Shown piece by piece: positions 70-29,007 of a stretch of DNA of 41,127 nt (within the stretch, counting starts at the first letter, position 1; every line of letters begins with the position of its first letter). The position numbers and the translations under genes were made by a program. The stretch is from NCBI GenBank assembly GCA_937873145.1, contig CALMVK010000221.1, positions 34,994-76,120 of the forward strand, written 5' to 3'. The notes beneath the pieces are model-generated. The model saw nothing but the letters and a program-made list of their open reading frames with translations. It made no database searches and was not told the DNA's origin. Origin of the DNA: an uncultured Granulicella sp. GTDB lineage: Bacteria; Acidobacteriota; Terriglobia; Terriglobales; Acidobacteriaceae.

Positions 70-85
70 TGGCTGCAAACGTGCG
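70..85 (+). promoter_or_regulatory. Candidate sigma-54 promoter before the TPR/glycosyltransferase gene
   Basis: TGGCTGCAAACGTGCG has the GG of the -24 element and the GC of the -12 element at the invariant distance. The -12 element is GTGC instead of the usual TTGC, so it is the weaker kind of match. A transcript would start near position 96, about 70-80 bases before the coding region. Support comes mainly from similar boxes before other genes of this window. Confidence 0.4.
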
Positions 86-162
86 ACAACGACAGCGGCA
101 GCGAAAATGGCCGGTCCGCAGCGAAGAAGAATGAGCAGCGCCGAATCTGCGTCCGTGTCACT

Positions 163-2178
163 TTGCCCGCAAACGATATGAAGGAACAACGAGCTGTAAA
201 ACAGCCGCATCGAGAGCTTCTCCAAACCGGATTGGTCCATCATCGCGCAGGCCGCTTTGCGCAGGCGTCGGCTTGTTATGGCCGACTGTTGCAGGCGAAC
301 CCACGCAATGCGGACGCCCTGCATCTTTCCGGAGTGCTGGCGCGGCAGCAGGACCGGCTGGACGTGTCGGCGCGGCTGATCGGCACCGCCATCCAACTCA
401 ACGGAGGCGTGTCGACGTACCACTACAATCTCGCCCGCACCTTTGCTTTACAGGGCAGACGCGGCGAGGCCAAGGAGAGCTACCGGCGGGCTATCCGGCT
501 GAACGGCCGCGATCCCGATTCCATGCAGATGCTGGCTCAGTTGCTCGGAGAACCAAGTGAGGCAGCCGAGGCTATCGAGCTGTGCACGCGGGTCGTCGAG
601 CTTGCTCCGGAGCGCGAGCCGGTGTACCTCCATTTAGCATTCCTGCTCAAGTCACGCGGCGAGATGCCGGCAGCTCTGGAGCTTTATCGCAAGGCGGTGA
701 GCTTGTTTCCGGATTCCTCCGACAGCCACTTTAGCCTGGGAAAAGCCCTCTACGAAGCCGGCTTGCCTGAGGAATGCCTTCCATCGTACGAACGGGCGCT
801 GGCCCTCAAACCAGACGATACGGAGGCGCACAACTGCCTGGGACGCGTGCTGCACGAGCGCGGCGACCTGGGTCTGGCGCGGGAGTCGTATCTGCGGGCA
901 GTGACGCTGAACCCGGAGTTCGCTGAGGCACTTTCTAATCTCGGCGCGCTGCAGATGGATGCGGGAGAGTACAAGACAGGCGAGGCTGTGCTGCGCCGGG
1001 CCGTCGCGCTGAAGCCGGACCTGTGGAACGCGCACTGCAATCTCGGCAGCATCCTGGCCCGGCAGGGAGACGCCCTGGGAGCGATCGCGGCGTTTCGGAC
1101 AGTGCTGATGGTGAATCCGCACGACGTGCCCACGCTTTGCAGCCTGGGATTTACGTTCGACGCGCTGGGCGATGAGGCAGGCGCGGCGAGCTGCTTTCGA
1201 CTCGCGCTGAAGGTGCAGCCCGGGTCTTCGCTGGCGCGGTTCAACCTGAGTTCTCACCTGCTACTTGAAGGTAACTTCGCCGACGGTTGGCCGGAGTATG
1301 AGCATCGCTGGAATGTCCGTCAGTTCGCTGGCAAGCGTGAGCCCTTCGCCCAGCCGCAGTGGCGCGGAGAGCCGATCCGGGGAGCGAAAATCTACGTGTA
1401 TGCCGAGCAGGGCCTGGGCGACACGCTGCAGTTTGTGCGCTACATCCCGATGCTGGTGGAGCGTGGCGCGGAGGTCATCCTGGAGGTGCAGCCGCCGCTG
1501 GTAGACCTGCTGGGGAACCTGGGACCCGCCGTGCAGGTGATCGTCAAAGGCGAGCGTCCGCAAGAGGTCGACTGGCACTCTCCTCTATTGAGCCTGCCGG
1601 GAGCATTCGACACAAATTTGAGCAATATACCGGCACCTGTGCCCTATCTGCGCGCCGATCCGGGCAAGTGCGCCGGCTGGTCGCGACGGCTCACGGCGAA
1701 CAGCCTGAAGGTGGGCGTGGTCTGGACCGGCAATCCGGGGCACACACGCGATCGGCTGCGATCCATCTCCTTCGCGCAGTTCCGGCGGCTGACGGAGGTT
1801 GAGGGAGCGACCTTCTATGCCCTGCAAAAAGGTCTGACGGCAGCTCAGCGCGAGGAGATTGCTTCGGCAGGAAAGGTGGTGGATCTCGGCGCGGAGTTGC
1901 AGGATTTCACCGACACAGCTGCGATTGTGGCCAATCTGGACTTGGTCATCACTGTAGATACGTCCGTGGCGCACCTGGCCGGGGCGCTCGGCAAGCCGGT
2001 GTGGATTCTGCTTCCGCACGCGCCCGACTGGCGCTGGCTGCGGGAGCGAGACGACAGCCCGTGGTATCCGACGGCGAGACTTTTTCGCCAAACAGCTGCC
2101 GGGCAGTGGGGGAGCGTGCTCGAGAAAGTGCAGCGCGAGCTGCAATGCGCCGTACGCGCACTCGGCGGAGTTCACTAA
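163..2178 (+). CDS. TPR protein with C-terminal GT9-like glycosyltransferase domain
   Basis: About 350 residues of tandem 34-residue TPR units (repeated A..Y..A..L.P pattern) precede a domain like the ADP-heptose:LPS heptosyltransferase fold. Visible landmarks are YAEQGLGDTLQF near residue 413, VGVVWTGNPG at 517-526 and DTSVAHLAGALGKPVW from 599. TPR-glycosyltransferase fusions of this kind often modify proteins, and in flagellar loci they are candidates for glycosylating flagellin or related structures; that role is inferred. The start is TTG at 163; an in-frame ATG at 178 is equally plausible, and neither has a clear ribosome site. The gene reads toward motAB but is separated from it by 191 bp carrying the motA promoter. 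It probably acts in the cytoplasm, as no signal peptide or membrane segment is visible. Confidence 0.8.
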   Translation: MPANDMKEQRAVKQPHRELLQTGLVHHRAGRFAQASACYGRLLQANPRNADALHLSGVLARQQDRLDVSARLIGTAIQLNGGVSTYHYNLARTFALQGRRGEAKESYRRAIRLNGRDPDSMQMLAQLLGEPSEAAEAIELCTRVVELAPEREPVYLHLAFLLKSRGEMPAALELYRKAVSLFPDSSDSHFSLGKALYEAGLPEECLPSYERALALKPDDTEAHNCLGRVLHERGDLGLARESYLRAVTLNPEFAEALSNLGALQMDAGEYKTGEAVLRRAVALKPDLWNAHCNLGSILARQGDALGAIAAFRTVLMVNPHDVPTLCSLGFTFDALGDEAGAASCFRLALKVQPGSSLARFNLSSHLLLEGNFADGWPEYEHRWNVRQFAGKREPFAQPQWRGEPIRGAKIYVYAEQGLGDTLQFVRYIPMLVERGAEVILEVQPPLVDLLGNLGPAVQVIVKGERPQEVDWHSPLLSLPGAFDTNLSNIPAPVPYLRADPGKCAGWSRRLTANSLKVGVVWTGNPGHTRDRLRSISFAQFRRLTEVEGATFYALQKGLTAAQREEIASAGKVVDLGAELQDFTDTAAIVANLDLVITVDTSVAHLAGALGKPVWILLPHAPDWRWLRERDDSPWYPTARLFRQTAAGQWGSVLEKVQRELQCAVRALGGVH

Positions 2179-2286
2179 TCTGCGACAGTCGTGCTGCGAC
2201 GGCGCCTCTCTTGATCAAGCGGCTTGACCACGCCCGTGCTCATGGAACGCTCATTCAACACAATCGAAGATTTCTACAAAAGTTCG

Positions 2287-2313
2287 TAAAGTTTTCTCCC
2301 TACCTGTCGATAA
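2287..2313 (+). promoter_or_regulatory. Sigma-28 (FliA) promoter of motAB
   Basis: TAAAGTTT at 2287-2294, exactly 11 bases, then GTCGATAA at 2306-2313. This matches the enterobacterial FliA consensus TAAAGTTT-N11-GCCGATAA at all but one position. Transcription should begin near 2320, about 50 bases before motA. The sigma factor itself is encoded at 25481 in this window. Confidence 0.85.
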
Positions 2314-2369
2314 GGAAAGAGAACAGACTGCACGGACTCGATGCCGGGCAGCTACGGGAGAGGCGGCAG

Positions 2370-3236
2370 ATGATTTCAATTGTGGGAATTCTTGTGGTTT
2401 TCGGTGCAGTCATTGGTGGGTTCCTCATGGAAAAGGGTCAGTTGGCAGTCCTGATTCAGCCGGCTGAGGTAGTAACGATTGTGGGCGCCGCGCTGGGAAC
2501 GCTGATTGTGGCAAACCCGATGCATGTTCTCAAAGGGCTTGTTGCGAGTCTGCTGGGAGTTCTCAAGGGATCGCCCTACACAAAACAGCGGTATCTCGAA
2601 ACGCTCAAGATGATGTTCGACCTCTTCAGCAAAGCACGCAAGGATGGCATGGTGGCGATCGAGGCCGACGTCGAAGGCGCAGACAAGAGCCCCCTCTTCG
2701 CGCAATACCCGAGTTTTCTCAAGGACCATCACGTAACCAACTTTGTCTGCGACACGATGCGCATGGCGATCACGGGAGGCGTGCTGCCGTTCGACGTGGA
2801 TCAGATGATGGAACTCGACATGGAAGTGCACCACCACACCACCGGCCAGCCGACTGGTGCGCTGAGTACAGTCGCCGATGCGCTTCCAGGACTGGGAATC
2901 GTCGCCGCCGTACTCGGCATTGTGATCACGATGGGCGCCCTGGGCGGTCCGCCGGAGGAGATCGGGCATAAGGTCGCGGCGGCGCTGGTCGGAACCTTTC
3001 TGGGAATCCTGCTGTGCTACGGCGTGCTAGGGCCGCTGGCTTCGGTCATGACCAAGATCAACGAAGAAGAACACTCGTATTACTCCATCCTGCGGGTTGT
3101 GATGATGGCGTTCATCAAGGGGACGACGCCGATCCTGGCCGTAGAACTCGCGCGGCGGGCCATCCCGGCGCACCTTCGTCCAAGCTTCGCTGAAGTTGAA
3201 AAAGCCTGCCGCAGCAAAGCTGCGGCGGCAGCATAA
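2370..3236 (+). CDS. motA: Flagellar motor stator protein MotA
   Basis: MotA forms the proton- or ion-conducting stator with MotB in the inner membrane and transmits force to FliG. The 288-residue protein has the family length and four hydrophobic segments: residues 1-20 and about 30-50, then a pair after the cytoplasmic loop around PGLGIVAAVLGIVITMGAL and the following GTFLGILLCYGVLGP. The reading frame is open further upstream (to 2001), but the family N terminus MISIVGILVVFGAVIGGF begins at ATG 2370, preceded by a GGGAG purine tract; the upstream extension would also contain the sigma-28 promoter. motB follows after 10 bases, so the two are one transcript. Confidence 0.95.
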   Translation: MISIVGILVVFGAVIGGFLMEKGQLAVLIQPAEVVTIVGAALGTLIVANPMHVLKGLVASLLGVLKGSPYTKQRYLETLKMMFDLFSKARKDGMVAIEADVEGADKSPLFAQYPSFLKDHHVTNFVCDTMRMAITGGVLPFDVDQMMELDMEVHHHTTGQPTGALSTVADALPGLGIVAAVLGIVITMGALGGPPEEIGHKVAAALVGTFLGILLCYGVLGPLASVMTKINEEEHSYYSILRVVMMAFIKGTTPILAVELARRAIPAHLRPSFAEVEKACRSKAAAAA

Positions 3237-3246
3237 GGAGCCTTCC

Positions 3247-4227
3247 ATGGCAAACGAACAACCGATCATCATCATCAAGAAAAAAAGCGGCCACGGCGGA
3301 CACCACGGAGGCGCATGGAAGGTGGCTTACGCCGATTTCGTTACCGCCATGATGAGTCTCTTCATCGTCCTCTGGCTGATGAACTCGACGCCTAAACCAG
3401 TACAGGAACAGATCGCCGGCTACTTCAACGATCCCAAGGGGACCGCGGCGAAGAAGGGCTCAGAGGGCAAACCTCTTCCTAAAGAGGTCAAGGAACTCAA
3501 GCAGGTGAAGGACTCGAAAGATACCAAGAAGATGGACGAACTGAAGAATGAGCTGCTTCGTGCCATCGAGGACATCAACCTGCTGAACAAACTGAAGAAG
3601 CAGATTGAGATTACGATCACCGACGAAGGCCTGCGTATCGAGTTAGTCGAGGATGAAAAGGGTACGTTTTTTGAGTCGGGCAGTGCACAGCCTACCCCGG
3701 CGCTTCAGCAGATTCTCAAGGTTCTGTCTGACCGGCTTAAAATCCTGCCCAACAGAATATCGATCGAGGGACATACGGACGCGCATCCCTACGCAAACCA
3801 AGCAGCCTATGGCAACTGGGAGCTTTCGACAGACCGTGCCAATGTGGCTCGGCGGCAGATGCAGGAGGACGGTGTACGTCCGGACCAGGTCTCGCAGGTG
3901 CGTGGCTTCGCCGATCAGCAGCTGCACTTTCCGGACAAACCACTCGATCCAGCCAACCGTCGCGTGTCGCTTGTGGTGCTGAATCTGCCAGCGGCTGCGC
4001 CAGACAAGATAGCGAAGGCGACTCCGGCAGCTGCCAAGGGGAAACCCTCGGTCGAGGAGGAGGCTAAGCCGAAGACGGTTGCGACCGAAGAACATCCCGC
4101 GGCAGCACCGTCAACGGCAGAACAGGCCGGAGCCAAGGAACCTGCTCCGGCCTCCGCGAAAGCGCCGGCCGGAATGTTTGCTGGAGTCAAGGCAATGTTC
4201 GGCAAGAAAGGCGCGGCGCATCCATGA
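3247..4227 (+). CDS. motB: Flagellar motor stator protein MotB
   Basis: MotB anchors the stator to peptidoglycan. The 326-residue protein has a basic N terminus, one membrane segment (about residues 26-46) with the ion-binding aspartate D30 in the signature YADFVTAMM, a charged linker, and an OmpA-like peptidoglycan-binding domain with IEGHTDA and the late NRRVSLVVL motif. A roughly 70-residue Ala/Pro/Lys/Glu-rich tail follows the OmpA domain and is probably disordered. ATG 3247 is chosen because AAGGAG at 3235-3240, overlapping the motA stop, is ideally placed and the protein then begins as in homologues. It is translated with motA from the sigma-28 promoter. Confidence 0.95.
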   Translation: MANEQPIIIIKKKSGHGGHHGGAWKVAYADFVTAMMSLFIVLWLMNSTPKPVQEQIAGYFNDPKGTAAKKGSEGKPLPKEVKELKQVKDSKDTKKMDELKNELLRAIEDINLLNKLKKQIEITITDEGLRIELVEDEKGTFFESGSAQPTPALQQILKVLSDRLKILPNRISIEGHTDAHPYANQAAYGNWELSTDRANVARRQMQEDGVRPDQVSQVRGFADQQLHFPDKPLDPANRRVSLVVLNLPAAAPDKIAKATPAAAKGKPSVEEEAKPKTVATEEHPAAAPSTAEQAGAKEPAPASAKAPAGMFAGVKAMFGKKGAAHP

Positions 4228-4253
4228 CGGGGATGCGTTACGGCGGCCAAGGG

Positions 4254-4571
4254 TTAGAGAGGCGCCAGCTGCTTGAGAAATTCGCGGAAACCGAGCCGCT
4301 CCTGCACAGACCTGTAGCGGAAGCGGATGCGGGTTTCCTCGTTGCGGGCCGCATAGACCCGCGCGTGGATTTGATAGCCCTCCTCCCCTGCGTGGTCGAA
4401 GTAAAGCGTGAGCAGTCCTTCGATCCCTGCCGGAACCGGAGAAGCAAAAGTGCCACGCAGACCGGATTCACTGACGTCCAGACAAATCCCAGGTACCGCA
4501 ACATCCCCGAAGATCAGGTCCATGCGGCAATCTATCTTGAAGCGGGGAGAACGATAAAGGAAGTCGCGCAT
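4254..4571 (-). CDS. Small PilZ-domain protein
   Basis: About 105 residues, essentially a single PilZ domain; this family usually binds cyclic di-GMP and can brake motility. The DxSxxG motif is clear (LDVSESGLRG). The usual upstream RxxxR motif is not obvious: the corresponding stretch reads YRSPRFKID, an RxxR spacing. The frame is open to a TTG at 4631, but ATG 4571 gives the normal domain length; neither start has a strong ribosome site. It lies tail-to-tail with motB (26-base gap) and diverges from the response regulator gene at 4757. A motility role is inferred from position. Confidence 0.75.
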   Translation of the reverse strand: MRDFLYRSPRFKIDCRMDLIFGDVAVPGICLDVSESGLRGTFASPVPAGIEGLLTLYFDHAGEEGYQIHARVYAARNEETRIRFRYRSVQERLGFREFLKQLAPL

Positions 4572-4700
4572 AGGGGGTCGCAGCGTTTGAAGCAAGCTTG
4601 GACGGCCGGTGGACGGCCTTCCGCACCGCAAGCTTAGCAGACCTGACCGGGTTTACCAGAGGCCGTTTGCTGCTACTTAAGTCGCAAGCGGAGTACCCCT

Positions 4701-4726
4701 TTTCGACTCGTTTCGACTGCTATACC
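4701..4726 (+). promoter_or_regulatory. 10-bp-phased direct repeat upstream of the OmpR-type regulator
   Basis: TTTCGACT occurs at 4701-4708 and again at 4711-4718, exactly one helical turn apart, followed by a TATACC -10-like hexamer at 4721-4726. OmpR-family regulators bind tandem direct repeats with about 10-bp phasing next to the -35 region. The arrangement suggests autoregulation of the gene at 4757; a good -35 hexamer is absent, as in activator-dependent promoters. This is inference from spacing alone. Confidence 0.45.
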
Positions 4727-4756
4727 TAAGCATGCAACGGTTCCGAGGAGAACACC

Positions 4757-5554: not shown

Positions 5555-5620
5555 ACAATGTCAACGTCCAGGCGAGTTTGACTGGTCCCATAAAGCACAC
5601 GCCGCTCAACGTACTTGAAC

Positions 5621-5635
5621 AGCGACTGAGTCGCT
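5621..5635. repeat. Perfect 15-bp palindrome between two regulator genes
   Basis: AGCGACTGAGTCGCT reads as 7-base inverted arms around one central base. It lies 66 bases after the response regulator stop and upstream of the sigma-54 activator. A one-base centre argues for a dimeric protein site rather than a hairpin, although a 5-bp stem with a 5-base loop is possible. No T-run follows. The rest of 5555-5762 shows no convincing promoter. Confidence 0.35.
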
Positions 5636-5848
5636 CAACGCACAAGTCAGGCTTTCAGCTTCGCACCCTTAGGTGAGCCCTGCAACGGCTGCCACGACTC
5701 CGGCATCCAGGAAGGATCGCGCATCAATCTCCTGAGTAGTCTACCGATACGGCGCGAGGAACATGCCTCGGTTCACCTTCTGCTGGTAAGCGGCAATGCA
5801 GGCTTTCGCGCGCAGCTTCGTGATCGTCTCGCTCCGTTACGCTGGAAT

Positions 5849-6892
5849 GTGGCGGAGGCGGTGAGCGGCGCCGAGGCGCTTGATCTGCTGCATGCCCAGG
5901 AGGACGTGGAGCTTCTGCTGCTCGACACTCTGTTGCCCGACCTGTTGCCGGCGGAGTTCATCGGCATGGTACGCCAAGGCTTTCCTGCAATAGAAGTCCT
6001 CACCATGAACACCAACACCGGACATGTGCTGGTAGGCAGCGCGGCACCTACGGCCTTTGCCGCGCAGGTCTCCGAGCTGCTCTACCAGGGAACGAACTCA
6101 AGTTTCAAGCCCGCGCTGCGGTCGCCGGAGTCGTTACGGACGGCGGCCAGCGCGCAGGGTCTGCGCGGAATGATCGGGGACTCCGCACCCATGCAGCAGG
6201 CCTATGCGCTGACCCACATGGTTGCGGCTCGTGAGACCACGGTCCTGGTCACGGGCGAGAGTGGCACAGGCAAAGACCTGATCGCACAGGCCATCCATAT
6301 GGTCAGTCCGCGGCAAAAAGCGCCCTTTGTAGTGGTGAACTGCGCCGCTATCCCCGAGGCGCTACTCGAGGCAGAGCTGTTTGGCTACGCCAAAGGAGCG
6401 TTCACCGGGGCAATGCAGTCGCGCATCGGACGCATCCACGCCGCGCATGGCGGAACCCTGTTCCTGGATGAGATTGGCGATATGCCTCTCTCGCTGCAAA
6501 GCAAGCTGCTGCGCTTTGTGGAGCAGGGTGAAGTGCAGCGGCTTGGCAGCAATGACAATCTGCGCGTCGATGTGCGCGTGGTCGCGGCAACCAACGCAGC
6601 TCTCCCCAGCATGGTCAAGCAGAAGCTGTTCCGCGAGGACCTCTACTATCGGCTGGCCGTGTTTCCAATCCGGCTCGCTCCCCTGAGAGAACGAGGCGAA
6701 GACATCCTGCTGCTGGCCCGTTTTTTCAGCGGAAAGTTCTGCCCCGGAGTGAGCTTGCGGACCGACGCAATCGATGCCCTTTACAAGCATGACTGGCCCG
6801 GCAACGTACGAGAGTTGCGCAACGTGATCGAACGCGCAAGTATCCTGGCCGGCCGGGAACGCGAGATCAGCGCTGAACATATCCTGCTTTGA
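5849..6892 (+). CDS. Sigma-54-dependent activator without DNA-binding domain (FlgR-like)
   Basis: From GTG 5849 the protein has 347 residues: the rest of a receiver-like domain (to about 80), then a full AAA+ sigma-54 activation domain with Walker A GESGTGKD at 136-143, the sigma-54-contacting loop GAFTGA at 183-188 and Walker B LFLDEIG at 204-210. It stops right after the AAA+ lid (ISAEHILL), with no Fis-type helix-turn-helix. The reading frame is open back to 5630 and encodes the missing receiver start (VHLLLVSGNAGFRAQL), but holds no ATG, GTG or TTG upstream of 5849, and GTG 5849 has no usable ribosome site. The receiver keeps an Asp (LLLLDTLLPD) but lacks the acidic pocket and the lysine. 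Helicobacter FlgR likewise activates from solution without a DNA-binding domain. It may act with or on the FlrC-like protein at 8243. Confidence 0.85.
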   Translation: MAEAVSGAEALDLLHAQEDVELLLLDTLLPDLLPAEFIGMVRQGFPAIEVLTMNTNTGHVLVGSAAPTAFAAQVSELLYQGTNSSFKPALRSPESLRTAASAQGLRGMIGDSAPMQQAYALTHMVAARETTVLVTGESGTGKDLIAQAIHMVSPRQKAPFVVVNCAAIPEALLEAELFGYAKGAFTGAMQSRIGRIHAAHGGTLFLDEIGDMPLSLQSKLLRFVEQGEVQRLGSNDNLRVDVRVVAATNAALPSMVKQKLFREDLYYRLAVFPIRLAPLRERGEDILLLARFFSGKFCPGVSLRTDAIDALYKHDWPGNVRELRNVIERASILAGREREISAEHILL

Positions 6893-6921
6893 TCTTGGGG
6901 GCTTTGACCTTTGGGGCCGTG

Positions 6922-6941: not shown

Positions 6942-6956
6942 GCCACCGACCCGGAT

Positions 6957-6972
6957 TGGCAACGAGGATGCA
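6957..6972 (+). promoter_or_regulatory. Sigma-54 promoter of the flrBC-flgBC-fliE-J operon
   Basis: TGGCAACGAGGATGCA: GG and GC are exactly 10 bases apart, and TGGC and TGCA are intact. The predicted start of transcription is about 6983, which lies after the TTG at 6981 and only 4 bases before the ATG at 6987. It therefore favours the downstream ATG 7032 as start of the kinase. If used, the two-component genes that activate sigma-54 promoters are themselves sigma-54 dependent. Confidence 0.6.
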
Positions 6973-7031
6973 CTTAGACCTTGCACATGACCTTACTCTC
7001 TCATCCGGGACCAATCCAAGCTTCAGGCGCG

Positions 7032-8246
7032 ATGGCGCCTCCGGAGATCATTGCTCTGGCCGACGCGTTCTCTGTCTTCGTCGAGGCATCGTCGCGTCTC
7101 GAAGGCTCGTACGAGCGGTTGCAGGCGGAGGTCGCCTACCTGAGCCATGAGCTGGCTAATCGCAACTCCGCGCTTAAGGCCAGCCTTGCCGAAAACGAAA
7201 GGGTACACCGGGCGCTGCAGCAGATTGTCGATTCTATGCCGTGCGGCGTGCTGGTAGTCGAGTGCGACAGCGTCGTCACGATGATCAACCCAGAGGGCCG
7301 TAAGTTGTTGGATCTAGGCTCTTCCGCAGCCGGCGACCTGGAAACGATCTCCGCGCACAGCGGCCTGGATCTTGCCGGCTTTTTAAGACGAGGCTCCGGC
7401 CGCGAAGAAGAGCAGGAGTTTTGCAGGATCTCAGAGACCGGCAGGCGCTGGCTCGCCGTGCACGAGCGCAGCCTCCTCGATGGCGGAAAGGCGGGCAGCG
7501 GCCGCAGACAGACGATTCTCATTTTGCGCGATGTCACGCCTCATAAGCAGGCGGAACTGGAGCGCGAGCGGGCACGGAAGGCAACCGCCTTGTCCGAGGT
7601 CGCGACGACACTCGCTCATGAAATTAGAAACCCGCTTACCAGTCTGGAGCTGTTTGCCGGGCTAATCGCCACCGGCGGCGAGGATACAGCCGAGTGGGTC
7701 TCTCATCTGCATGCCGGCATCCGGTCCTTGGCGGCAACGGTCAACAACGTGCTTAGCTTTCACGGGGTCGGGTTCTCGGTGTTGGCTCCGCTCGATCTCA
7801 CCGCGGCGATCCGCAGCAGCGTGGAGTTTGCGCGGCCCATCGCTTCAGAGGCGGGCGTAACGCTGGAGTTTGGCTCCGACGGCAGCGGTGTACAGGTGCA
7901 CGGCAATGGTGGCGCGCTACAGCAGATGGTGCTCAACATGGTCACAAACGCCATCCGGCATACACACAAAGGAGGCCGCGTGCGGGTGGAGGTGCGCCGG
8001 CTTACCAATTCAGCGGGCGTGGAAGACACGGATCACGCGGTGGTTCGGTTTGCGGATACCGGCAGCGGAATCCTTCCGGAACACCTGCCCGAGATCTTTC
8101 GTGCCGGCTTCAGTGGTACCGGCAACAGTTCAGGTCTCGGTCTCGCCGTGTGCCAACAGATTGTGAAACAGCATGACGGCGAGATTCGCGTGACGAGTGT
8201 GCCGGGATTAGGAACGACGTTTTTTGTGGAGCTGCCAACTGTATGA
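7032..8246 (+). CDS. PAS-containing sensor histidine kinase, FlrB/FleS-like
   Basis: A 404-residue soluble kinase: coiled-coil-like N terminus, a PAS-type segment (VDSMPCGVLVVE...INPEGRKLL), a HisKA helix with the phospho-accepting histidine in TLAHEIRNPLTSLELF (H196 from this start) and an HATPase domain with MVTNAIRHT, FADTGSGI and SGLGLAV. No membrane segment is visible, as in cytoplasmic flagellar kinases such as FlrB and FleS. The frame extends to TTG 6981 and ATG 6987, but the sigma-54 box at 6957-6972 would put the transcript start at about 6983; ATG 7032 follows a CAGG tract and keeps all domains. Its stop overlaps the start of the partner regulator by 4 bases, so the pair is translationally coupled. 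Confidence 0.88.
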   Translation: MAPPEIIALADAFSVFVEASSRLEGSYERLQAEVAYLSHELANRNSALKASLAENERVHRALQQIVDSMPCGVLVVECDSVVTMINPEGRKLLDLGSSAAGDLETISAHSGLDLAGFLRRGSGREEEQEFCRISETGRRWLAVHERSLLDGGKAGSGRRQTILILRDVTPHKQAELERERARKATALSEVATTLAHEIRNPLTSLELFAGLIATGGEDTAEWVSHLHAGIRSLAATVNNVLSFHGVGFSVLAPLDLTAAIRSSVEFARPIASEAGVTLEFGSDGSGVQVHGNGGALQQMVLNMVTNAIRHTHKGGRVRVEVRRLTNSAGVEDTDHAVVRFADTGSGILPEHLPEIFRAGFSGTGNSSGLGLAVCQQIVKQHDGEIRVTSVPGLGTTFFVELPTV

Positions 8247-9616
8247 GTTCAGTGCTGATTGTGGATGATGAAGCGGGGATCCGGACCGCGCTGCGGGTAA
8301 ACTTCTCGCGCAACGGATGGGATGTTGAGACGGCAAGCGGCGTGAGGGATGCGGCGCGGCTGCTCGAAAACAAACCCTTTCAGTTGATTGTGAGCGACAT
8401 GCGCATGCCGGACGGAGACGGGCTCGAGGTGATGCGCTCGGCGCGTCGGATCGCCCCGGGAACTGCCGTTATCTTGCTGACCGCCTTTGGCACCGTGCCG
8501 GATGCGGTCGAGGCGATGCGCAGTGGTGCGTTCGACTATCTAACCAAGCCCATTTCGTTCGATCAGCTGGAGGAAGCGGCCGCTCGGGTCATGACGCCGA
8601 CGGACGGCAGGCAAGCCGCCATGGACGCCGAAGGCTCCGAGACGAGTGCCATTGTCGGCCGGGCGCCGCAGCTGCTGCGCGCGCTGGAGCGGGCCCGCGC
8701 CGCGGCCACGACCGATGCCGATGTGCTGGTCGAGGCCGAGAGCGGCACAGGCAAGGAGCTGCTGGCGCGCTTTATCCATGAAGCAAGCGATCGCGCGCGC
8801 AAACCGTTTGTCGCGGTCAACTGTGCCGCGGTTCCGGAGCATCTGCTCGAGAGCGAACTCTTCGGGCATGCACGCGGTGCCTTTACGGGAGCGACCGCAG
8901 CCAAGGCGGGACGTTTCGAGCTGGCGAACGGTGGCACGCTGCTGCTCGACGAGATCGGCGAGATGCCGTTGAACCTGCAGCCAAAACTGCTGCGCGCCCT
9001 GCAAGAGCGGGAGTTCGAGCGGCTTGGAGAGACACGTTCAATCAAAGTAGACATCCGTGTCATCGCAACGACTAACGTGGACCTGGGCAGCATGGTCGAT
9101 GAAGGCAAGTTCCGCAGCGATCTCTACTACCGGCTGAACGTGATTCCGCTGGCTTTGCCTCCGCTGCGCGAACGGGCCGGCGATGTCGATCTGTTGGCCC
9201 GTTACTTTGCAGAGAAGTTTGCTGGCAAGCATAGCCGTCCGGTCCAGCGCTTGACTCCGGAGTTCCTCGACCGCCTGCGCGCGCATCACTGGCCGGGCAA
9301 TGTGCGCGAGCTCGGCAACTTCATGCGGCGTGTCTGCTCGCTGCACACAGGCGCGGTGCTCGATGCGGCGTGCTTCGACCAGGAGTTCCGCAGCCGGGAG
9401 AAGCCGGTGGCCAATGTCGCGAACACGTCTGCTCCCACGGCTTCGGCTGTGTTCGCCGGAGCACCCATCCGTCAGATGGAACGAACGCATCTTGAGAACA
9501 CGCTGGCCATGACCCAGGGCAATCGCACCCAAGCCGCCGAGCTGCTGGGCATCAGCATCCGGACCATGCGCAACCGCATTCGTGAATACGGGCTTCCGCC
9601 CCGGAGGTACGCATAA
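8243..9616 (+). CDS. Sigma-54-dependent response regulator, FlrC/FleR-like
   Basis: The 457-residue protein has all three NtrC-type parts. The receiver has the acidic pair D8-D9, phospho-site D52, T80 and K102. The AAA+ domain has GAFTGA at 212-217 and Walker B near 231-239. The C-terminal Fis-type helix-turn-helix is at about 422-455 (NRTQAAELLGISIRTMRNRI). It should activate the sigma-54 promoters of the hook-basal-body genes after phosphorylation by the kinase encoded just upstream. One key position is odd: Walker A reads AESGTGKE (165-172), with alanine for the first glycine of GESGTGKE. The stop codon shares its last base with the flgB start codon, so regulator and structural genes are in one operon. 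Confidence 0.92.
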   Translation: MSSVLIVDDEAGIRTALRVNFSRNGWDVETASGVRDAARLLENKPFQLIVSDMRMPDGDGLEVMRSARRIAPGTAVILLTAFGTVPDAVEAMRSGAFDYLTKPISFDQLEEAAARVMTPTDGRQAAMDAEGSETSAIVGRAPQLLRALERARAAATTDADVLVEAESGTGKELLARFIHEASDRARKPFVAVNCAAVPEHLLESELFGHARGAFTGATAAKAGRFELANGGTLLLDEIGEMPLNLQPKLLRALQEREFERLGETRSIKVDIRVIATTNVDLGSMVDEGKFRSDLYYRLNVIPLALPPLRERAGDVDLLARYFAEKFAGKHSRPVQRLTPEFLDRLRAHHWPGNVRELGNFMRRVCSLHTGAVLDAACFDQEFRSREKPVANVANTSAPTASAVFAGAPIRQMERTHLENTLAMTQGNRTQAAELLGISIRTMRNRIREYGLPPRRYA

Positions 9617-15399: not shown

Positions 15400-15885
15400 A
15401 TGGCCTTTGAATTCACGCTCGAAACGGTGCTGCGCGTGCGCAAGATCGCGGAGGACCGCGAAGAGCGTCTCCTCACGCAGATTCTGCAGCAGATCGCGCA
15501 ATGCCGGCAAAGCCTGACAGATCTCGCCTTGCGACGGACCGAGCTTTGTCTCGGGCGGGAGCGTGTCCTCGCCGCAGGGACCTCAGCCGCTGAACTCCTT
15601 TTGCTGAACGGACAGATACGCACCGTCGAAGCGCTGGAGGAGAGCGGCAGGCAGCATTGGGCCGGCCTCGAAAAACTCCGCGCGCAGCAGATGATCGTCT
15701 ACGAGACCGCTCACGCGAATCGGAGCTTGCTGGCCACGATGCGCGAGCAAGCGCGTGACCGCTTTGAGGCTGAGCAGGCGCGCGAGGAGCAGAAGCAGAT
15801 GGACGATCGCTTCTCCGCAGCTAGGCACGGTTTGCCGGGTAAGGTCGGCAACGATTGCCGTAGCTTGCCGGGTGCCTCTTCGTAA
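15400..15885 (+). CDS. fliJ: Flagellar export protein FliJ
   Basis: A 161-residue, almost entirely alpha-helical protein rich in Glu, Arg and Gln, as expected for the coiled-coil FliJ that sits in the FliI ring and escorts chaperones. The N terminus FEFTLETVLRVRKIAEDREE is typical. The last about 25 residues (HGLPGKVGNDCRSLPGASS) are low in helix propensity and overlap a run of TTGCCGG-type repeats, so the native C terminus may be ragged. It is the last gene of the operon starting at 7032; a hairpin follows at 15901. Confidence 0.85.
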   Translation: MAFEFTLETVLRVRKIAEDREERLLTQILQQIAQCRQSLTDLALRRTELCLGRERVLAAGTSAAELLLLNGQIRTVEALEESGRQHWAGLEKLRAQQMIVYETAHANRSLLATMREQARDRFEAEQAREEQKQMDDRFSAARHGLPGKVGNDCRSLPGASS

Positions 15886-15967: not shown

Positions 15968-15983
15968 TGGCGGACCACGTGCA
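15968..15983 (+). promoter_or_regulatory. Candidate sigma-54 promoter of fliK-flgD-flgE
   Basis: TGGCGGACCACGTGCA has the -24 GG and -12 GC at correct spacing; the -12 element is GTGC, not TTGC. The predicted transcript start (about 15994) almost coincides with the GTG at 15996, so either the mRNA is nearly leaderless or fliK starts a little downstream. Confidence 0.5.
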
Positions 15984-15995: not shown

Positions 15996-17753
15996 GTGCA
16001 GATTTTGTCTCAACTCGCAAGTGCTGAGCCCAACCCTATCCCTCGGAGTGCGGCCTCCCCATTAGGGAACCACGCGCCGAGTTTTGAGGAGGCTTTCCGG
16101 ACTGCAGCGACTCAGGGCGAGGCCGCCGGAAAGCCTACAACTGAGAGCGGCGTAGCTTCTGAAGATTCCTCTGCCGCGAATCTCCAGGCTGCCGGCAAGA
16201 GTGAGGCGACACTTGACGGCCCCGTCGCGAACAGCTCCGCGCTGCCCGCTACCGGCCTCTCTGGCGTAGCGTCTTTAAGAACGGTCACCTGGGCAGGTGC
16301 GGACGCAACCGCCGCACTCGGAGCCTCGGCCCTCCGCGCGGACAACTTTTCTGCACGCGCAGGAGAGACCAGGATCAAGAAGACGGCCTCCTCCGACGAG
16401 CAAAGCGGAGTTGCTGCGAGTGCCCCCGCAACGACACCGGAGAGCGCAGCCCTTGCAATCACGCCTCTCTCCACGCCGGTAAACGCCGACAGTGCCCTCG
16501 AAGGCGAAATGGATGCATCTGTCCCTGCTTCCGATGCGACAAACCGGAACCTTCCAGCGTCGGCGAATCAGCAAGTGGTGGAAGCAGACAGCGCTGCGGA
16601 GGCTTCAGGAGACGTGCAGCCGACCGGCTCTACGGCCTCTCCCGCAACAACGCTACCCGCGACCATAACCACAACGGCGGGCCTGGTTGCCAATGCAAGC
16701 ACGACCGCAAACCAGGCGACGCAGGAGTTATCGCAGGCGCATGCGGCATCCGATCCAAAAAATGGGTCGACTTCTGCCTCCCACCCTAAAACCACATTGG
16801 AAGCCACGTCTGTCTCCTCTTCAGAAGCCGCGATCTCCTCTGCAACGAACGGGACACAAACCATTCCTTTCCAGTTCGCTGCCCAGAGCGCACTGCAACG
16901 CGGGACGCTGCAGGACGCGACGCTGCAGGACGGGACTCTCTCGTTAGCTTCTTCGTCTTCAGTCGGGGCCAGCCGCAGCGGTGCCGGAGACGTTCGGGGC
17001 AAGCGCAAAGAGACAGCCGCGGACGGCTCGTCTTCCGAGCGGGATTCAACCATTACCGTATCTCCACCCTTTGCCTCCCGGCTTGCCGAAGCGCAGGCAC
17101 CTGCCCAGGCCGGGGCTAGCACTTTACCCGGGGACGACCCAGCAGTCCTGCAGAGAGCGCTCGAGGCAAACCAGTCTTTGGCATCGACTCTTCCGCCCGC
17201 TTCCACGGCGACGGCTCAGACCGCAGCCCCGCCTGTTGCACCTTCCACGCCTGCCGCGACGAACATTCCGCTCGCCTCCGCAGAAACAGTCGTGATCCCG
17301 GGAGCAAGCAGCGCGCAACTGATTCAGTCGGCCGGTCAAACCGAGATGCGGCTGGGGATGCACTCTGCCGAGTTCGGCAACATCTCGATCAGTACCTCGG
17401 TGAGTCATCAGACCCTCTCAGCACAGATCTCGCTCGATCATTCGGAGCTGGGGCGAGCGCTGGCCGTGCATCTGCCGGCGATTGAAGCGAAGCTGGGTTC
17501 CGCATACGGACTCGAAGCGAGCGTACAGTTGCGGCATGAAACCGTAGCGTCGCGGACAACAACCGATTCCGGACAAGCCGGAGGGGGGCAGGAACAAACC
17601 GGTGGGGCTCGCAACGGACAAAGCAGAAGTGGATCCGAGGCTTCGCCAGCAAGTGCAACGGCGACCACCCAGGCTGGGTCAACCAACCTCGCGGCAAGTA
17701 GTTCAACGTTGCTCGTTCCCGCCGAGAGGTCCCGGCTGGACATCCGAATTTAG
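15996..17753 (+). CDS. fliK: Flagellar hook-length control protein FliK
   Basis: 585 residues. FliK is a secreted molecular ruler that ends hook growth by switching FlhB specificity. As in the family, the first about 440 residues are a low-complexity Ala/Ser/Thr/Pro-rich ruler, and the conserved Flg_hook domain lies near the C terminus (about 445-520: TEMRLGMHSAEFGNISI, LSAQISLDHSELGRALAVHLP). A Gly/Gln-rich tail follows. GTG 15996 is the upstream start; TTG 16005 (same frame) is an alternative better spaced from AAGTAAGG. The position before flgD and flgE supports the assignment more than sequence in the ruler does. Confidence 0.88.
   Translation: MQILSQLASAEPNPIPRSAASPLGNHAPSFEEAFRTAATQGEAAGKPTTESGVASEDSSAANLQAAGKSEATLDGPVANSSALPATGLSGVASLRTVTWAGADATAALGASALRADNFSARAGETRIKKTASSDEQSGVAASAPATTPESAALAITPLSTPVNADSALEGEMDASVPASDATNRNLPASANQQVVEADSAAEASGDVQPTGSTASPATTLPATITTTAGLVANASTTANQATQELSQAHAASDPKNGSTSASHPKTTLEATSVSSSEAAISSATNGTQTIPFQFAAQSALQRGTLQDATLQDGTLSLASSSSVGASRSGAGDVRGKRKETAADGSSSERDSTITVSPPFASRLAEAQAPAQAGASTLPGDDPAVLQRALEANQSLASTLPPASTATAQTAAPPVAPSTPAATNIPLASAETVVIPGASSAQLIQSAGQTEMRLGMHSAEFGNISISTSVSHQTLSAQISLDHSELGRALAVHLPAIEAKLGSAYGLEASVQLRHETVASRTTTDSGQAGGGQEQTGGARNGQSRSGSEASPASATATTQAGSTNLAASSSTLLVPAERSRLDIRI
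16904..16933 (+). repeat. 15-bp tandem duplication inside fliK
   Basis: GACGCTGCAGGACGC at 16904-16918 is repeated at 16919-16933 with one base changed. It encodes the peptide repeat TLQDATLQDGTL in the FliK ruler region, keeping the frame. Such units can change ruler length by slippage. Confidence 0.7.
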
Positions 17754-19498: not shown

Positions 19499-19528
19499 GG
19501 GCAGGGTGCAGTACAGATGAGTGGAGTA

Positions 19529-19576
19529 TGAGAGACAGCGGGCGCGCTTTCCGGAGAGTTTACCGGCTGTCTCTCA
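19529..19576 (+). terminator. Long-stem hairpin terminating the fliK-flgD-flgE operon
   Basis: TGAGAGACAGC at 19529-19539 is perfectly complementary to GCTGTCTCTCA at 19566-19576, an 11-bp stem with a 26-base loop, followed by a pyrimidine-rich CTCTTCTC tract. It lies 30 bases after flgE and before the next sigma-54 box. The remaining intergenic sequence to 19690 shows no gene. Confidence 0.7.
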
Positions 19577-19690
19577 CTCTTCTCATCACTCAATTCTTAA
19601 AGCGTGATAGATGCACCTCTAAATGTGCAAGTCGCCAGATGCCTGACCCTGCGCTATAACCCTTTTGTAGGACGTCTTCCCTCTTCGGTT

Positions 19691-19706
19691 TGGCCCCCGG
19701 TTTGCA
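19691..19706 (+). promoter_or_regulatory. Sigma-54 promoter of the fliN-O-P-Q-R-flhB-flhA operon
   Basis: TGGCCCCCGGTTTGCA contains TGGC and TTGCA with exact -24/-12 spacing, one of the two best matches in the window. The predicted transcript start is about 19717, 35 bases before the first gene. Confidence 0.8.
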
Positions 19707-22235: not shown

Positions 22236-22241
22236 GCACGC

Positions 22242-25432: not shown

Positions 25433-25448
25433 TGGTTCTTGAATTGCA
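25433..25448 (+). promoter_or_regulatory. Candidate sigma-54 promoter of fliA
   Basis: TGGTTCTTGAATTGCA has a perfect TTGCA -12 element and GG at the correct -24 distance (the base after GG is T instead of C). It begins at the base after the flhA stop codon. The predicted start, about 25459, is 22 bases before fliA. It would let sigma-28 be made independently of the long fliN-flhA transcript. Confidence 0.55.
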
Positions 25449-25480
25449 CTGCTGTTGAATGTTGCTCTGGAGAATTTTAG

Positions 25481-26275
25481 ATGGCCGCCGCACACACCGT
25501 TTATACAATGATCGCCCGCGAAGAAAAGGAAATCGACGAGCGCAACGAGCTTATCGTGCAGGAGCTGCCGCAGGTCTATTTTCTTGCGGCCCGCATTCGC
25601 GAGAGACTGCCCCAGCAGGTAGACCTCGAAGACCTGGTACACGCCGGCGTCCTCGGCCTAATCGAGGCGTACCAGCGCTTTGACCACACCCGCAACGCAC
25701 AGTTTAAAACCTATGCCAAGTTCCGCATTGAGGGCGCGATTCTGGATAGCCTGCGCTCGCTGGACTGGGGATCGCGCAGCCTCCGGGTCAAGGCACGCGA
25801 TATTGAAAAGGCCACCGCCAGACTCGAGGCCGAGCAGGGTCGGCAGCCCACACGGGAGGAGCTTGCCGCCGAGCTCAACCTGAGCCTGAGCGTACTTGAG
25901 ACCGTGCAGAACGAAATTCACGGGCTCTACACGGTAGGACAGGAGGCGCAGTCCACCTTCGAAGGTGAGGCATCGCTGGACCTGATCGAGTCCGCTCCCA
26001 GTCATTGGGAGAACCCGTTTGAGATGTATTGCAAGACCGAAGCCAGGGCGCATTTGACCCAGGCCGTCTCCGAGCTTACCGAGCGCGAGCAGCTCATCCT
26101 GTCGCTTTACTACCGCGAAGAGCTGACCATGCGCGAAGTGGCCCACGTCGTCGGCCTGGCCGTTTCGCGGGTCTCGCAGCTGCACACGGCCGCCCTTGAA
26201 AAGCTGAAGCAGAAGCTCGGCGTTCCGGGCGCCGAGGAGCAGGAGCAGCCACGGAAGATGAGGAGATCCGCATGA
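25481..26275 (+). CDS. fliA: RNA polymerase sigma-28 factor FliA
   Basis: 264 residues. Region 2 is seen in DLVHAGVLGLIEAYQRFD and FKTYAKFRIEGAILDSLRSLDWGSRSLR, region 3 in REELAAELNLSLSVL, and region 4 in LTEREQLILSLYYREELTMREVAHVVGLAVSRVSQLHTAALEKLK. It transcribes late flagellar genes and is held by FlgM (33538) until hook completion. GGAG at 25469-25472 is correctly spaced before ATG 25481. It has its own candidate sigma-54 box and overlaps fliM by 4 bases. Confidence 0.95.
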   Translation: MAAAHTVYTMIAREEKEIDERNELIVQELPQVYFLAARIRERLPQQVDLEDLVHAGVLGLIEAYQRFDHTRNAQFKTYAKFRIEGAILDSLRSLDWGSRSLRVKARDIEKATARLEAEQGRQPTREELAAELNLSLSVLETVQNEIHGLYTVGQEAQSTFEGEASLDLIESAPSHWENPFEMYCKTEARAHLTQAVSELTEREQLILSLYYREELTMREVAHVVGLAVSRVSQLHTAALEKLKQKLGVPGAEEQEQPRKMRRSA

Positions 26276-27204
26276 CGACGCTTGAAGGAAACGATCGCGC
26301 GGCGGGCGCCGGACCAAGAGTCTCGCCCTGCAACTTCCGCTCCGCGGGCCGGCTGTCCAACGAGAGTGCGCGCAGTCTTCGGACGCTGCATGAGGTGCTG
26401 GCCCGCAATCTCAGCAACTCGCTCGATGTCTATCTCGGCACGGGCCTCGAAGTGCGGCTGGTCTCGCTTGAGCAGTTGACCATGGACGACTTCAAGGCCA
26501 AGTGCGTCGCGGGTGCCTATATGCTGCCCTACACCATGCGGCCGTCCACCAGCGTGGTGCTGCTTGAGGTAGAAAACCAGCTCATGTTTACCATCGTCGA
26601 TCTGCTGCTGGGAGGCACAGGCGCCAAGCTCGAAATTGCCCGCGAGCTGACCGAGATCGACGAAGAGATTATGGAAGGCGTGGGGGCACTGATCGCTCAG
26701 CAGATTGAGCGGGTGTGGCCGCCGCTGGGCTCGCCTCTCTCGCCCGGTAAGTGCCTCAAATCAAACGTTGCGCACCGGCTCTTTCCGCCTACGGACAAGG
26801 TGCTTCGAGTTCACTTCGACTTGAGCGTCGCAGGCATGACCGGCTCAGTGTTTCTTGCGTTCCAGGCTGCGCTCGCCGGCCACCTGGTGCGGAACATGCG
26901 CAACGAGATGGCGAGCGGCGGGAGCGTGCGTTACCTGCCCATGGCCAGTCTGCAGAAACGCATGCTGGAGTGCCGCTTCGCTCTCTCAGGAGATTTGCCC
27001 GACCTGCGCGTTTCGGTACGGGAGCTCGCGCAGATTCAGCCCGGGAGCGTACTGATGCTCTCCGCGCCGGTCGCCGGGCCGGGCAAGCTGGCGCTTGAAG
27101 GAAAGCTCTTCTTCGAGGCCCAGCCGGTGCGCCAGGGCGACACCAAAGCCATGCAACTTTTGAAGCGCCTGAAGACAGAGGAACCCGAAACGGATGAGGA
27201 GTAG
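26272..27204 (+). CDS. fliM: Flagellar motor switch protein FliM
   Basis: 310 residues. The middle CheC-like domain has the GGxG motif as GGTG at 114-117 (FTIVDLLLGGTGAKLE), and the C-terminal SpoA domain spans about 235-305. FliM links FliG to FliN in the C ring. The N terminus normally starts with the CheY-P binding motif LSQxEIDALL; here it reads TTLEGNDRAAGAG and contains nothing like it. The start overlaps fliA (ATGA) and the stop is 4 bases before the next gene, so all three are coupled. Confidence 0.88.
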   Translation: MTTLEGNDRAAGAGPRVSPCNFRSAGRLSNESARSLRTLHEVLARNLSNSLDVYLGTGLEVRLVSLEQLTMDDFKAKCVAGAYMLPYTMRPSTSVVLLEVENQLMFTIVDLLLGGTGAKLEIARELTEIDEEIMEGVGALIAQQIERVWPPLGSPLSPGKCLKSNVAHRLFPPTDKVLRVHFDLSVAGMTGSVFLAFQAALAGHLVRNMRNEMASGGSVRYLPMASLQKRMLECRFALSGDLPDLRVSVRELAQIQPGSVLMLSAPVAGPGKLALEGKLFFEAQPVRQGDTKAMQLLKRLKTEEPETDEE

Positions 27205-27208
27205 CCGC

Positions 27209-28003
27209 ATGCAGCCAGACAGCAAACAAGGATGGAAGACACTCGGGCATTGCCTGTGCGAGGCGCTTACGGCAGCTCTCGAGCAGGCCTGCCAGCACTC
27301 CTGGCAGACCTCAGCCGCAGACGAGCCCTATGGTCCGCGGCCGGTCGATGAAGCCACCGTTACCTTCCGGTTGCGCCTTCGCGGGGCGCTCGAAGGGGAA
27401 GCCTTTGTGCTCATCAAGCAGGCGGAAGTCCCGCGGCTCGGGCTGCGCACGGCCTCCGCTCCCATCTTTGAAGAGGCTCACGCGGCCGGTTTGCTCCTCT
27501 TGCTGGAAGGGTGCACCGCGGCTTTGGGCAACGCGCTCTCGCAGGCCGGCACAGTCGCAGTGCAGGTGGAGCGAGTCGAACATCCCGAGCTGCCCGATGA
27601 GCACGAGATGGAGCTTTGGGCGCAGGCCGAGGACGAAGCGACTTCAGGCAAGCAGCGCGTCTCCTTCTATCTCTCTCTGGATCGAAAACTCGGCAGTGCC
27701 ATTGCGCTCTCCGCAGCCCGCGCTTTACCGTACCCCTCCGTGAGCGACGCCGCTCCAGCCGCCAATCTCGACCTTGTTCTCGATGTCGAGTTGAACGTCA
27801 CGCTTCGCTTCGGTCAGCGGCAGCTTACGCTCCGCGAGATCCTTGGCCTTACCAGCGGCTCGGTCGTGGAGCTGGACCGGCAAGTGGACGAGCCGGTCGA
27901 TCTGGTCCTCGACGGCCGGGTCGTGGCGCGTGGCGAAGCCGTCATCATCGACGGCAACTATGGTCTGCGCGTGACGCACGTCATGGCGCCGCAGCTGCAG
28001 TAG
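27209..28003 (+). CDS. FliN/FliY-type motor switch protein, second SpoA-domain copy
   Basis: 264 residues. The C terminus is a SpoA domain (DLVLDVELNVTLRFGQRQLTLREILGLTSGSVVELDRQV, then GNYGLRVTHV), the FliN hallmark. The first about 180 residues form a separate domain with a helical segment EEAHAAGLLLLLEGCTAALGNALSQ and strands; this size is reminiscent of FliY, but I cannot show a CheC active site. The frame is open from ATG 27194 inside fliM, but ATG 27209 has GAGGAG 7 bases upstream. It closes the operon begun at fliN. Either FliN or a hybrid C-ring subunit. Confidence 0.75.
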   Translation: MQPDSKQGWKTLGHCLCEALTAALEQACQHSWQTSAADEPYGPRPVDEATVTFRLRLRGALEGEAFVLIKQAEVPRLGLRTASAPIFEEAHAAGLLLLLEGCTAALGNALSQAGTVAVQVERVEHPELPDEHEMELWAQAEDEATSGKQRVSFYLSLDRKLGSAIALSAARALPYPSVSDAAPAANLDLVLDVELNVTLRFGQRQLTLREILGLTSGSVVELDRQVDEPVDLVLDGRVVARGEAVIIDGNYGLRVTHVMAPQLQ

Positions 28004-28087
28004 GCGCCGCGGCTAAAGTCACAGATTCTGTCAAATTATTTTGCGTACTGTATGAATGACCGGACCCATTCTGCCGATAGAGGAGTT

Positions 28088-28103
28088 AGCTCTGCGAAGA
28101 GCT
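28088..28103 (+). promoter_or_regulatory. GNRA-capped hairpin just before the HDOD gene ribosome site
   Basis: AGCTCT and AGAGCT form a 6-bp stem closed by GCGA, a stable GNRA-type tetraloop. The bases right after it (CTCCTGGAGG) contain the ribosome site and can also fold back on it, so the leader could change translation of the gene at 28120. No promoter of good quality was found in 28004-28087. Confidence 0.35.
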
Positions 28104-28119
28104 CCTGGAGGCCACCGGC

Positions 28120-28854
28120 ATGTTCCGCGAGTCCGCACTGACGCAAGACCTCAGTATGCCCCTTCCTTTGTTCCTGGCGGGGGTTCCTCTGCCTGAGGCC
28201 GGCGATACGCTGCCCAGTATGCCTATCCTGGCGGCCACGCGACTGCAGCTAGAGCTGTTGCTGCAGGAACGTTCGGTCGACCTGAAGAATATGGCAGAGA
28301 TCATCCTTGCCGATGCGGGAGCGACATTGCAGGTCCTGCGCCTCATCGGGGAGGAATACGCCGGGGAAGAGGAACGCCCGACTCGCATCGAAGACTGCAT
28401 CGTTAGCCTCACCCGTGAGCGTTGGCATGAGGTTGTCTGCGCGTCCTCTACGTCGCACAGCGCACCTCTGCTGGCGGAGTGGCAGCACTGCCGCCGCATC
28501 GCGGAGTGCGCGCGAGAACTTGCCCGGTGCATGGATGGCTTTCAACCCGAGGAAGCCTACCTCGTCGGGCTGCTCTTCCGCCTCGGGAAGTTCCCCCGCC
28601 TACTCGGCTGGAGACCGATTGGCGACCTGCCCCGGATAAATGCTCTTGACGCTCACCACGGGGAAGACCACGCGGTAAGTCTTATGCTCGCGGAGTACTG
28701 GCATCTTCCTGCCTATTTGCTCTCTGCGCTGCGCGAACAGGCCCCCGCTGCCCTGCCGTGCACGGACTCCGCCCTGGGTTGGGCCGGCATCCTGCAAAAC
28801 GCGCAGGAGCTCGCGGAGCGTGCTCAGGCCTCGTGCTCGGGCGCAATGCTGTGA
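28120..28854 (+). CDS. HDOD-domain protein
   Basis: 244 residues. The fold is recognised from LQLELLLQERSVDLKNMAEIILADAGATLQVLRLI, the HDOD first helices, followed by TRIEDCIVSL, the helix HCRRIAECARELAR and EEAYLVGLLFRLGKF. HDOD proteins are metal-site-lacking relatives of HD phosphohydrolases and serve as signalling adaptors; some bacterial members affect motility. The conserved HD pair of active enzymes is not apparent. CTGGAGG at 28105-28111 is the ribosome site. It stands alone between two flagellar operons on the same strand, so a regulatory role in the flagellar system is likely but inferred. Confidence 0.75.
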   Translation: MFRESALTQDLSMPLPLFLAGVPLPEAGDTLPSMPILAATRLQLELLLQERSVDLKNMAEIILADAGATLQVLRLIGEEYAGEEERPTRIEDCIVSLTRERWHEVVCASSTSHSAPLLAEWQHCRRIAECARELARCMDGFQPEEAYLVGLLFRLGKFPRLLGWRPIGDLPRINALDAHHGEDHAVSLMLAEYWHLPAYLLSALREQAPAALPCTDSALGWAGILQNAQELAERAQASCSGAML

Positions 28855-28884
28855 CGCTTTCGGCACAGAATCGCCAACTAAATT

Positions 28885-28917
28885 AGAGCGATCCTCCTGC
28901 AGGCTCTCATTCGCTCT
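28885..28917 (+). terminator. Possible terminator hairpin after the HDOD gene
   Basis: AGAGCGA at 28885-28891 pairs with TCGCTCT at 28911-28917 around a 19-base loop, followed by a pyrimidine-rich tract (CACCTTTCC). It sits between the HDOD gene and the sigma-54 box of flgF. Confidence 0.4.
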
Positions 28918-28991
28918 CACCTTTCCACCGCTGAGCCTGCTTTCCTTCCCCGTCCGTTGTAGAAAAACTAGGCAAACTTTGCCGTTTCAAT

Positions 28992-29007
28992 TGGCCCCTG
29001 CGTTGCA
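28992..29007 (+). promoter_or_regulatory. Sigma-54 promoter of flgF-G-A-H-I-J
   Basis: TGGCCCCTGCGTTGCA matches the consensus TGGCACG-N4-TTGCA with exact spacing; with the box at 19691 it is the best in the window. The predicted start is about 29018, directly before the ribosome site GAGGA at 29020-29024 of flgF. Confidence 0.82.

Follow-up and report, generated by a model that had tools for sequence, protein, structure and literature searches.

The flagellar locus and its sigma-54 boxes

The stretch of DNA analysed here, called the window, comprises 41,127 nucleotides from an uncultured Granulicella sp. (assembly GCA_937873145.1, contig CALMVK010000221.1, C221 in our numbering) and is filled by a flagellar gene cluster, in which short boxes of the sigma-54 type precede several genes. 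Our analysis suggests that the cluster is read by a sigma-70/sigma-54/sigma-28 cascade in which the sigma-54 promoters number four rather than the six originally predicted. The genome measures 4.18 Mb in 344 contigs and is 91% complete, and it carries an rpoN gene (PF04552, E = 7.9e-57). Gene names were taken from Pfam for the 20 proteins scanned, from NCBIfam for seven, and otherwise from gene order; the remaining names also draw on features of the translations that we take to be characteristic. Positions are collected in Table 1.

By FlhA, the nearest named relatives are an Acidobacteriaceae and an Acidobacteria metagenome-assembled genome (67%) and Silvibacterium bohemicum (59%); FlhA matches were found in 39 of 61 genomes. 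A genus-wide FlgF search of 62 genomes detected the locus type of the window in seven (FlgF identity 57-100%), only more distant FlgF in 47 (best full-length matches 40-50%) and none in eight. In five of the seven carriers it coexists with the more distant flagellar system that is commoner in the genus, and the window type may therefore represent a second system or a mobile one. For footprinting, the same locus was read in six relatives (G003, G006, G026, G030, G036 and G070). G036 is near-identical to G003 and was excluded from matrix training, from the column counts and from the leave-one-out row of G003. The contig of G026 begins inside fliH and fliA was unmatched there, and the stretch compared in G006 gave no motAB match.

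Strings with TGG-N9-TGC spacing were confirmed at 70, 6957, 15968, 19691, 25433 and 28992; TGGC-N8-TGC is common to five of them, and all six are correctly spaced and intergenic by our gene calls. The window contains 20 TGGC-N8-TGC strings on both strands, 14 of them on the forward strand (11.0 expected in shuffles). Of the forward-strand matches, five fall within the 2,365 intergenic bases and nine within the 38,762 coding bases (odds ratio = 9.1, P-value = 0.0008, Fisher test; P-value = 2e-5 against 0.32 expected, Poisson), and on the reverse strand none is intergenic and six are coding. Within the window, boxes are therefore denser between genes than inside them. The looser TGG-N9-TGC, required to take in box 25433, has 6 intergenic and 32 coding matches (odds ratio = 3.1, P-value = 0.02). 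At that level, chance could explain one or two of the six boxes, and box 25433 adds little.

Table 1. Predicted genes and regulatory sites of the window. Ranks are among 82,222 positions scored with a matrix built from relatives only.
Feature	Position	Strand	Predicted +1	Rank	Remarks
Sigma-54 box, sensor-kinase/FlrC-type operon	6957..6971	+	6983	3	
Sigma-54 box, fliK	15968..15982	+	15994	119	
Sigma-54 box, fliN-OPQR-flhBA	19691..19705	+	19717	2	
Sigma-54 box, flgF operon	28992..29006	+	29018	1	
Doubtful box before fliA	25433..25447	+		7	directly 3' of flhA stop codon
Doubtful box before TPR/glycosyltransferase gene	70..84	+		65	
FleQ-like sigma-54 activator	5723..6892	+			PF00158 and lid, no helix-turn-helix (HTH); putative ATC start
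Sensor histidine kinase	6987..8246	+			HisKA and HATPase_c (Pfam); ATG position conserved
FlrC-type response regulator	8243..9616	+			receiver, sigma-54 ATPase, Fis-type HTH (Pfam)
fliK	15996..17753	+			GTG start; Flg_hook below cut-off (Pfam), gene order
fliA (sigma-28)	25481..26275	+			TIGR02479 and NF005413 above cut-off
Enhancer-like palindrome 1, fliK	15822..15838	+			146 bases before box; equivalent in 6/6 relatives
Enhancer-like palindrome 2, fliK	15845..15861	+			123 bases before box
Enhancer-like palindrome, flgF	28969..28985	+			23 bases before box; 6/7 genomes
Sigma-28-like -10 before motA	2306..2313	+			GTCGATAA; GTCGATAG in 4/4 relatives holding motA
Sigma-28-like -10 before HDOD gene	28073..28080	+			GCCGATAG
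Sigma-28-like -10 before flgM	33503..33510	+			GTCGATAA; GCCGATAG in 5 relatives

Four of the boxes were recovered in the relatives, amid diverged spacers. The kinase-operon box was kept in all five relatives holding the region, and those before fliK, fliN and flgF in all six, the fliN box as TGGT in G006. Over 23 sites (window included, G036 excluded), the TTGGC and TTGCA columns are informative and the middle of the spacer is little so. When each genome was left out of the training set in turn, the four boxes took ranks 1-4 in G030, G070 and G003 and ranks 1, 2, 4 and 5 in G036. By convention, +1 was placed twelve bases after the C of the -12 element; the resulting bases coincide with the starts originally proposed for these four boxes and are all G in the window, and over the 23 sites they are G 15 times, T five times, C twice and A once. 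We regard it as highly probable that these four boxes are sigma-54 promoters. The fliK box of the window is the weakest copy of a conserved family site.

The boxes at 25433 and 70 are doubtful. That all six are functional and form a complete map, the fliA and TPR/glycosyltransferase boxes having been gained in the lineage of the window, would accord with their intergenic position and correct spacing, with the TTGCA end and rank of box 25433, and with a box, unrelated in appearance, before fliA in the more distant G039. Against this, box 25433 has no counterpart in any of the five relatives compared (best matrix score <=4.3 in the 220 bases before fliA), so that fliA is probably transcribed together with flhA; box 70 ranks low, and sigma-28-like sites head other units. 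Box 70 also adjoins an assembly gap of about 100 N that immediately precedes the window (L109), and in the loci of the relatives the only counterpart of its gene was a partial match (28%) in G040. We consider a role for all six very improbable and rejected the six-promoter map. The claim of a complete sigma-54 regulon map is thus not supported, given also that the operon of the FleQ-like gene has no sigma-54 box.

Across the whole genome, 1,391 TGGC-N8-TGC strings were counted versus 871 for the reversed control, and the stricter seed TTGGCM-N6-TTGCW gave 25 matches (two of which are window boxes) versus 7. Only two of the 25 are free of an overlapping open reading frame (ORF) of at least 60 aa; this filter is poor, as spurious ORFs overlap both window boxes too, and no regulon is claimed from the seeds. 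Strong seeds free of overlapping ORFs were observed in the same genome at L057 and L068, 201 and 83 bases before ORFs whose products, from their N-termini, are presumably TonB-receptor/carboxypeptidase-domain proteins.

Activators, palindromes and the other sigma factors

Two sigma-54 activators are encoded side by side in the cluster. The FleQ-like protein has the ATPase domain PF00158 with GAFTGA in its translation, and the Pfam scan found no C-terminal Fis-type HTH in it. Its stop follows right after the ATPase lid, the same end is found in four relatives, and the match in G070 reaches the last residue; by eye, no HTH could be recognised at the end of the related proteins in G032, G022 and G040 either. 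The second activator is the HTH-bearing response regulator, whose partner kinase is likewise encoded inside the flagellar cluster. The best NCBIfam matches for kinase and activators were AtoS, AtoC and the FlgR domain, all under the cut-off. FlhF gave no match above the cut-off in this genome, and weaker FlhF matches are uninformative, the same search producing them in 14 of 14 control genomes.

A palindrome similar to TAGGCA-N4-TTGCCTA precedes fliK in all seven genomes, 131-146 bases before the box, and a second one follows 22-24 bases on in five of the seven and about 33 bases on in G003 and G036. The same palindrome precedes flgF in six of the seven, 23-24 bases before the box, with none in G026. 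A matrix trained on these sites was run on nine untrained loci. For G040 and G051 the top match falls in the fliJ-fliK gap, in each case 68 bases ahead of the fliK box, and that in L152 lies in the same gap, 134 bases before a weak fliK box. No palindrome was found before fliK in L154, G032 or G022, and the loci of L153, G039 and G037 do not include this region; the palindrome was not found in the commoner flagellar system of the genus (G032, G022). Its probable role is that of an enhancer for the FlrC-type activator. A palindrome related to TGGTACTTAAGTACCA was also observed at about 4670-4690 of the window. It stands some 70-105 bases ahead of the gene for the OmpR-like regulator, there and in relatives, and is most distinct in G030 and G070.

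The palindromes might instead serve as terminators or bind a repressor or some other regulator. The FlrC-type protein would then act elsewhere, perhaps joining the FleQ-like protein in a hetero-oligomer that serves all four promoters, as described for FleQ/FleT of Rhodobacter sphaeroides (PMC7277832). The flgF palindrome stands only 23 bases from its box, which is close for looping activation, and a terminator scan lists it as terminator-like. Both fliK palindromes, however, lie more than 100 bases upstream in an enhancer-like position, and among the 26 places in the genome with the palindrome core, three in the window locus precede a box and one other precedes a poor one. We therefore hold this alternative to be unlikely and prefer the enhancer function, which replaced the terminator reading of the flgF hairpin.

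The original prediction that terminator-like hairpins precede several boxes stood in part. A strong hairpin is present between flgE and fliN (19515-19600, z = -5.7), but the sequences preceding 6957 and 15968 are no more stably folded than their shuffled versions, and the hairpin before 28992 is the flgF palindrome itself, which accounts for part of the hairpins noted. The terminator scans showed no excess of terminator-like sites over shuffled sequence (18 versus 16.9; 12 versus 15.5).

Besides the sigma-28-like sites of Table 1, of which that before the HDOD gene is weaker in G030 and G070, a sigma-28-like GCCGATAA -10-like site precedes fliC on contig C303 (L124). That locus, away from the window cluster, holds flagellin, FliD-like and FliS-like genes and a second motAB-like pair. 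The operon of the OmpR-like and FleQ-like genes carries a conserved GACTGCTATA -10-like sequence in all six genomes compared.

Start codons and predicted leaderless mRNAs

The fliK start is found as TGC-N13-GTG in all seven genomes, and that of the kinase as TGC-N15-ATG in five of six and with N14 in the sixth. This predicts leaders of about 4 nt for the kinase mRNA and about 2 nt for the fliK mRNA. Farther away, fliK reads TGC-N12-GTG in G040 and TGC-N16-ATG in G051. Translation of both genes from leadered mRNAs of other promoters, with the near-zero distance a coincidence, seems to us rather doubtful. In its favour, a 13-base interval would often escape insertions and deletions by chance in so few lineages, and fliK has a longer leader with AGGAGG in G032 and a longer gap in L152; yet start codons (GTG in 7/7, ATG in 6/6) and distances are kept without a Shine-Dalgarno (SD) sequence at normal spacing, and an in-frame TAA stands two codons before the GTG of fliK in the window.

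The frame of the FleQ-like gene opens at 5630 and contains no ATG, GTG or TTG before 5849. In six of six genomes an isoleucine codon (ATC four times, ATT and ATA once each) follows an SD-like purine run at the same point; in the window the ATC lies at 5723 and the SD-like AGGAAGGA at 5709-5716. This conserved arrangement suggests a rare AUH start. Conventional start codons nearby speak against this: an ATG stands six codons downstream in G030 and a TTG six codons upstream in G036, and a GTG is present farther inside the frame in G070, G003 and G006.

Tentatively, the cascade may be tuned by unusual initiation at three points, namely the leaderless fliK (GTG) and kinase mRNAs and an isoleucine start of the FleQ-like protein that lacks a DNA-binding domain. 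It is then conceivable, at a similar level of doubt, that the sigma-54 promoters themselves fix the translation starts of fliK (about 2 nt) and the kinase (about 4 nt). In the parts of the literature consulted, many leaderless mRNAs are described for Leptospira (PMC5243855), those of Sinorhizobium meliloti all start with AUG (PMC3616915), those of Campylobacter jejuni follow sigma-70 boxes (PMC3847290), and one source mentions leaderless genes controlled by further sigma factors, WhiG among them. Leaderless genes were also predicted in three of three Acidobacteria genomes (an average of 13.3% of the genes, PMC3160421), there from a sigma-70 -10 box, whereas the present prediction starts from a sigma-54 box and, for fliK, a GTG. 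If it is true, leaderless translation would be coupled to sigma-54 control, a connection not found in the excerpts of the leaderless-mRNA literature searched.

The candidate cascade and known flagellar systems

We favour, with moderate confidence, the reading of the locus as a sigma-70/sigma-54/sigma-28 flagellar cascade, because of the conserved boxes, their ranks in held-out genomes, the rpoN gene, the activator domains, the palindrome positions, the sigma-28 sites and published regulatory logic. A sigma-70-type promoter would drive the OmpR-like regulator and the FleQ-like ATPase, which, having no DNA-binding domain, would activate the palindrome-less promoters from solution, that is, the units kinase/FlrC/flgBC/fliEFGHIJ and fliN-OPQR-flhBA-fliA. 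The kinase, whose signal is probably the completed assembly of MS ring and export gate, would then phosphorylate the FlrC-type regulator, which would bind the palindromes and turn on fliK-flgDE (hook) and flgFGAHIJ (distal rod). FliA would finally read motAB, flgMNKL, the HDOD gene and fliC-D-S. This assignment of activators to promoters is about as likely as not to be right.

Several observations weigh against this cascade. No NCBIfam model of the kinase or either activator reaches the cut-off. The fliK box of the window scores weakly beside the other three (1, 2, 3 and 119), and leave-one-out ranks are weaker in G026 (1, 6 and 22) and G006 (1, 2, 3 and 8, the last being the fliN box). Beyond the six relatives, the boxes are unevenly conserved across the class: fliK is preceded by a box in G040, G051 and G032 and by a weak one in L152, with none before fliK in L154 or G022, and the fliN box is not at the equivalent place in G040, G051, G032 or G022, the system of G022 having a strong box ahead of a different gene that lies upstream of fliN. 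A sequence resembling the palindrome is also found in G040 between the genes for the FleQ-like protein and the kinase, which speaks against confining it strictly to hook and rod units, and the palindrome core is not enriched genome-wide (30 strand matches at 26 places versus 26 for the reversed control).

No paper on sigma-54 control of acidobacterial flagella stood among the titles that the literature searches listed, and the string 'acidobacteri' was unmatched in the main texts of PMC12316311 and PMC3162934. The cascade would extend the sigma-54 rod/hook design to Acidobacteriota, and our analysis supplies exact predicted 5' ends and a candidate enhancer motif.

Helicobacter pylori FlgR is an activator without a DNA-binding domain and, to our knowledge, the only such activator in the FlgSR system. 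FleT likewise has no DNA-binding domain. According to PMC7064773, FlrBC, FleSR and FlgSR with sigma-54 turn on rod and hook genes. The window shares with FlrA/FlrBC of Vibrio cholerae and FleQ/FleSR of Pseudomonas aeruginosa two sigma-54 activators, one of them in a kinase/regulator pair, and sigma-28 late genes; its fliA has no conserved sigma-54 box, and that of P. aeruginosa is independent of sigma-54 (PMC7064773). Unlike the FlrA/FleQ hierarchies, its FleQ-like protein has no DNA-binding domain, FlhF is missing above the cut-off, and hook and basal body genes are grouped differently. FleQ and FleT of R. sphaeroides Fla1 act together, the second activator being encoded with fliEFGHIJ (PMC7277832); that description has no kinase gene, and there FleQ is the master regulator. 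With FlgSR of C. jejuni and H. pylori the window has in common a kinase/regulator pair that works with sigma-54 at the genes for rod and hook (PMC7064773), and it differs in also having a complete FlrC-type regulator with an HTH. By analogy, the logic of the locus resembles that of the FlrA/FlrBC and FlgSR systems.

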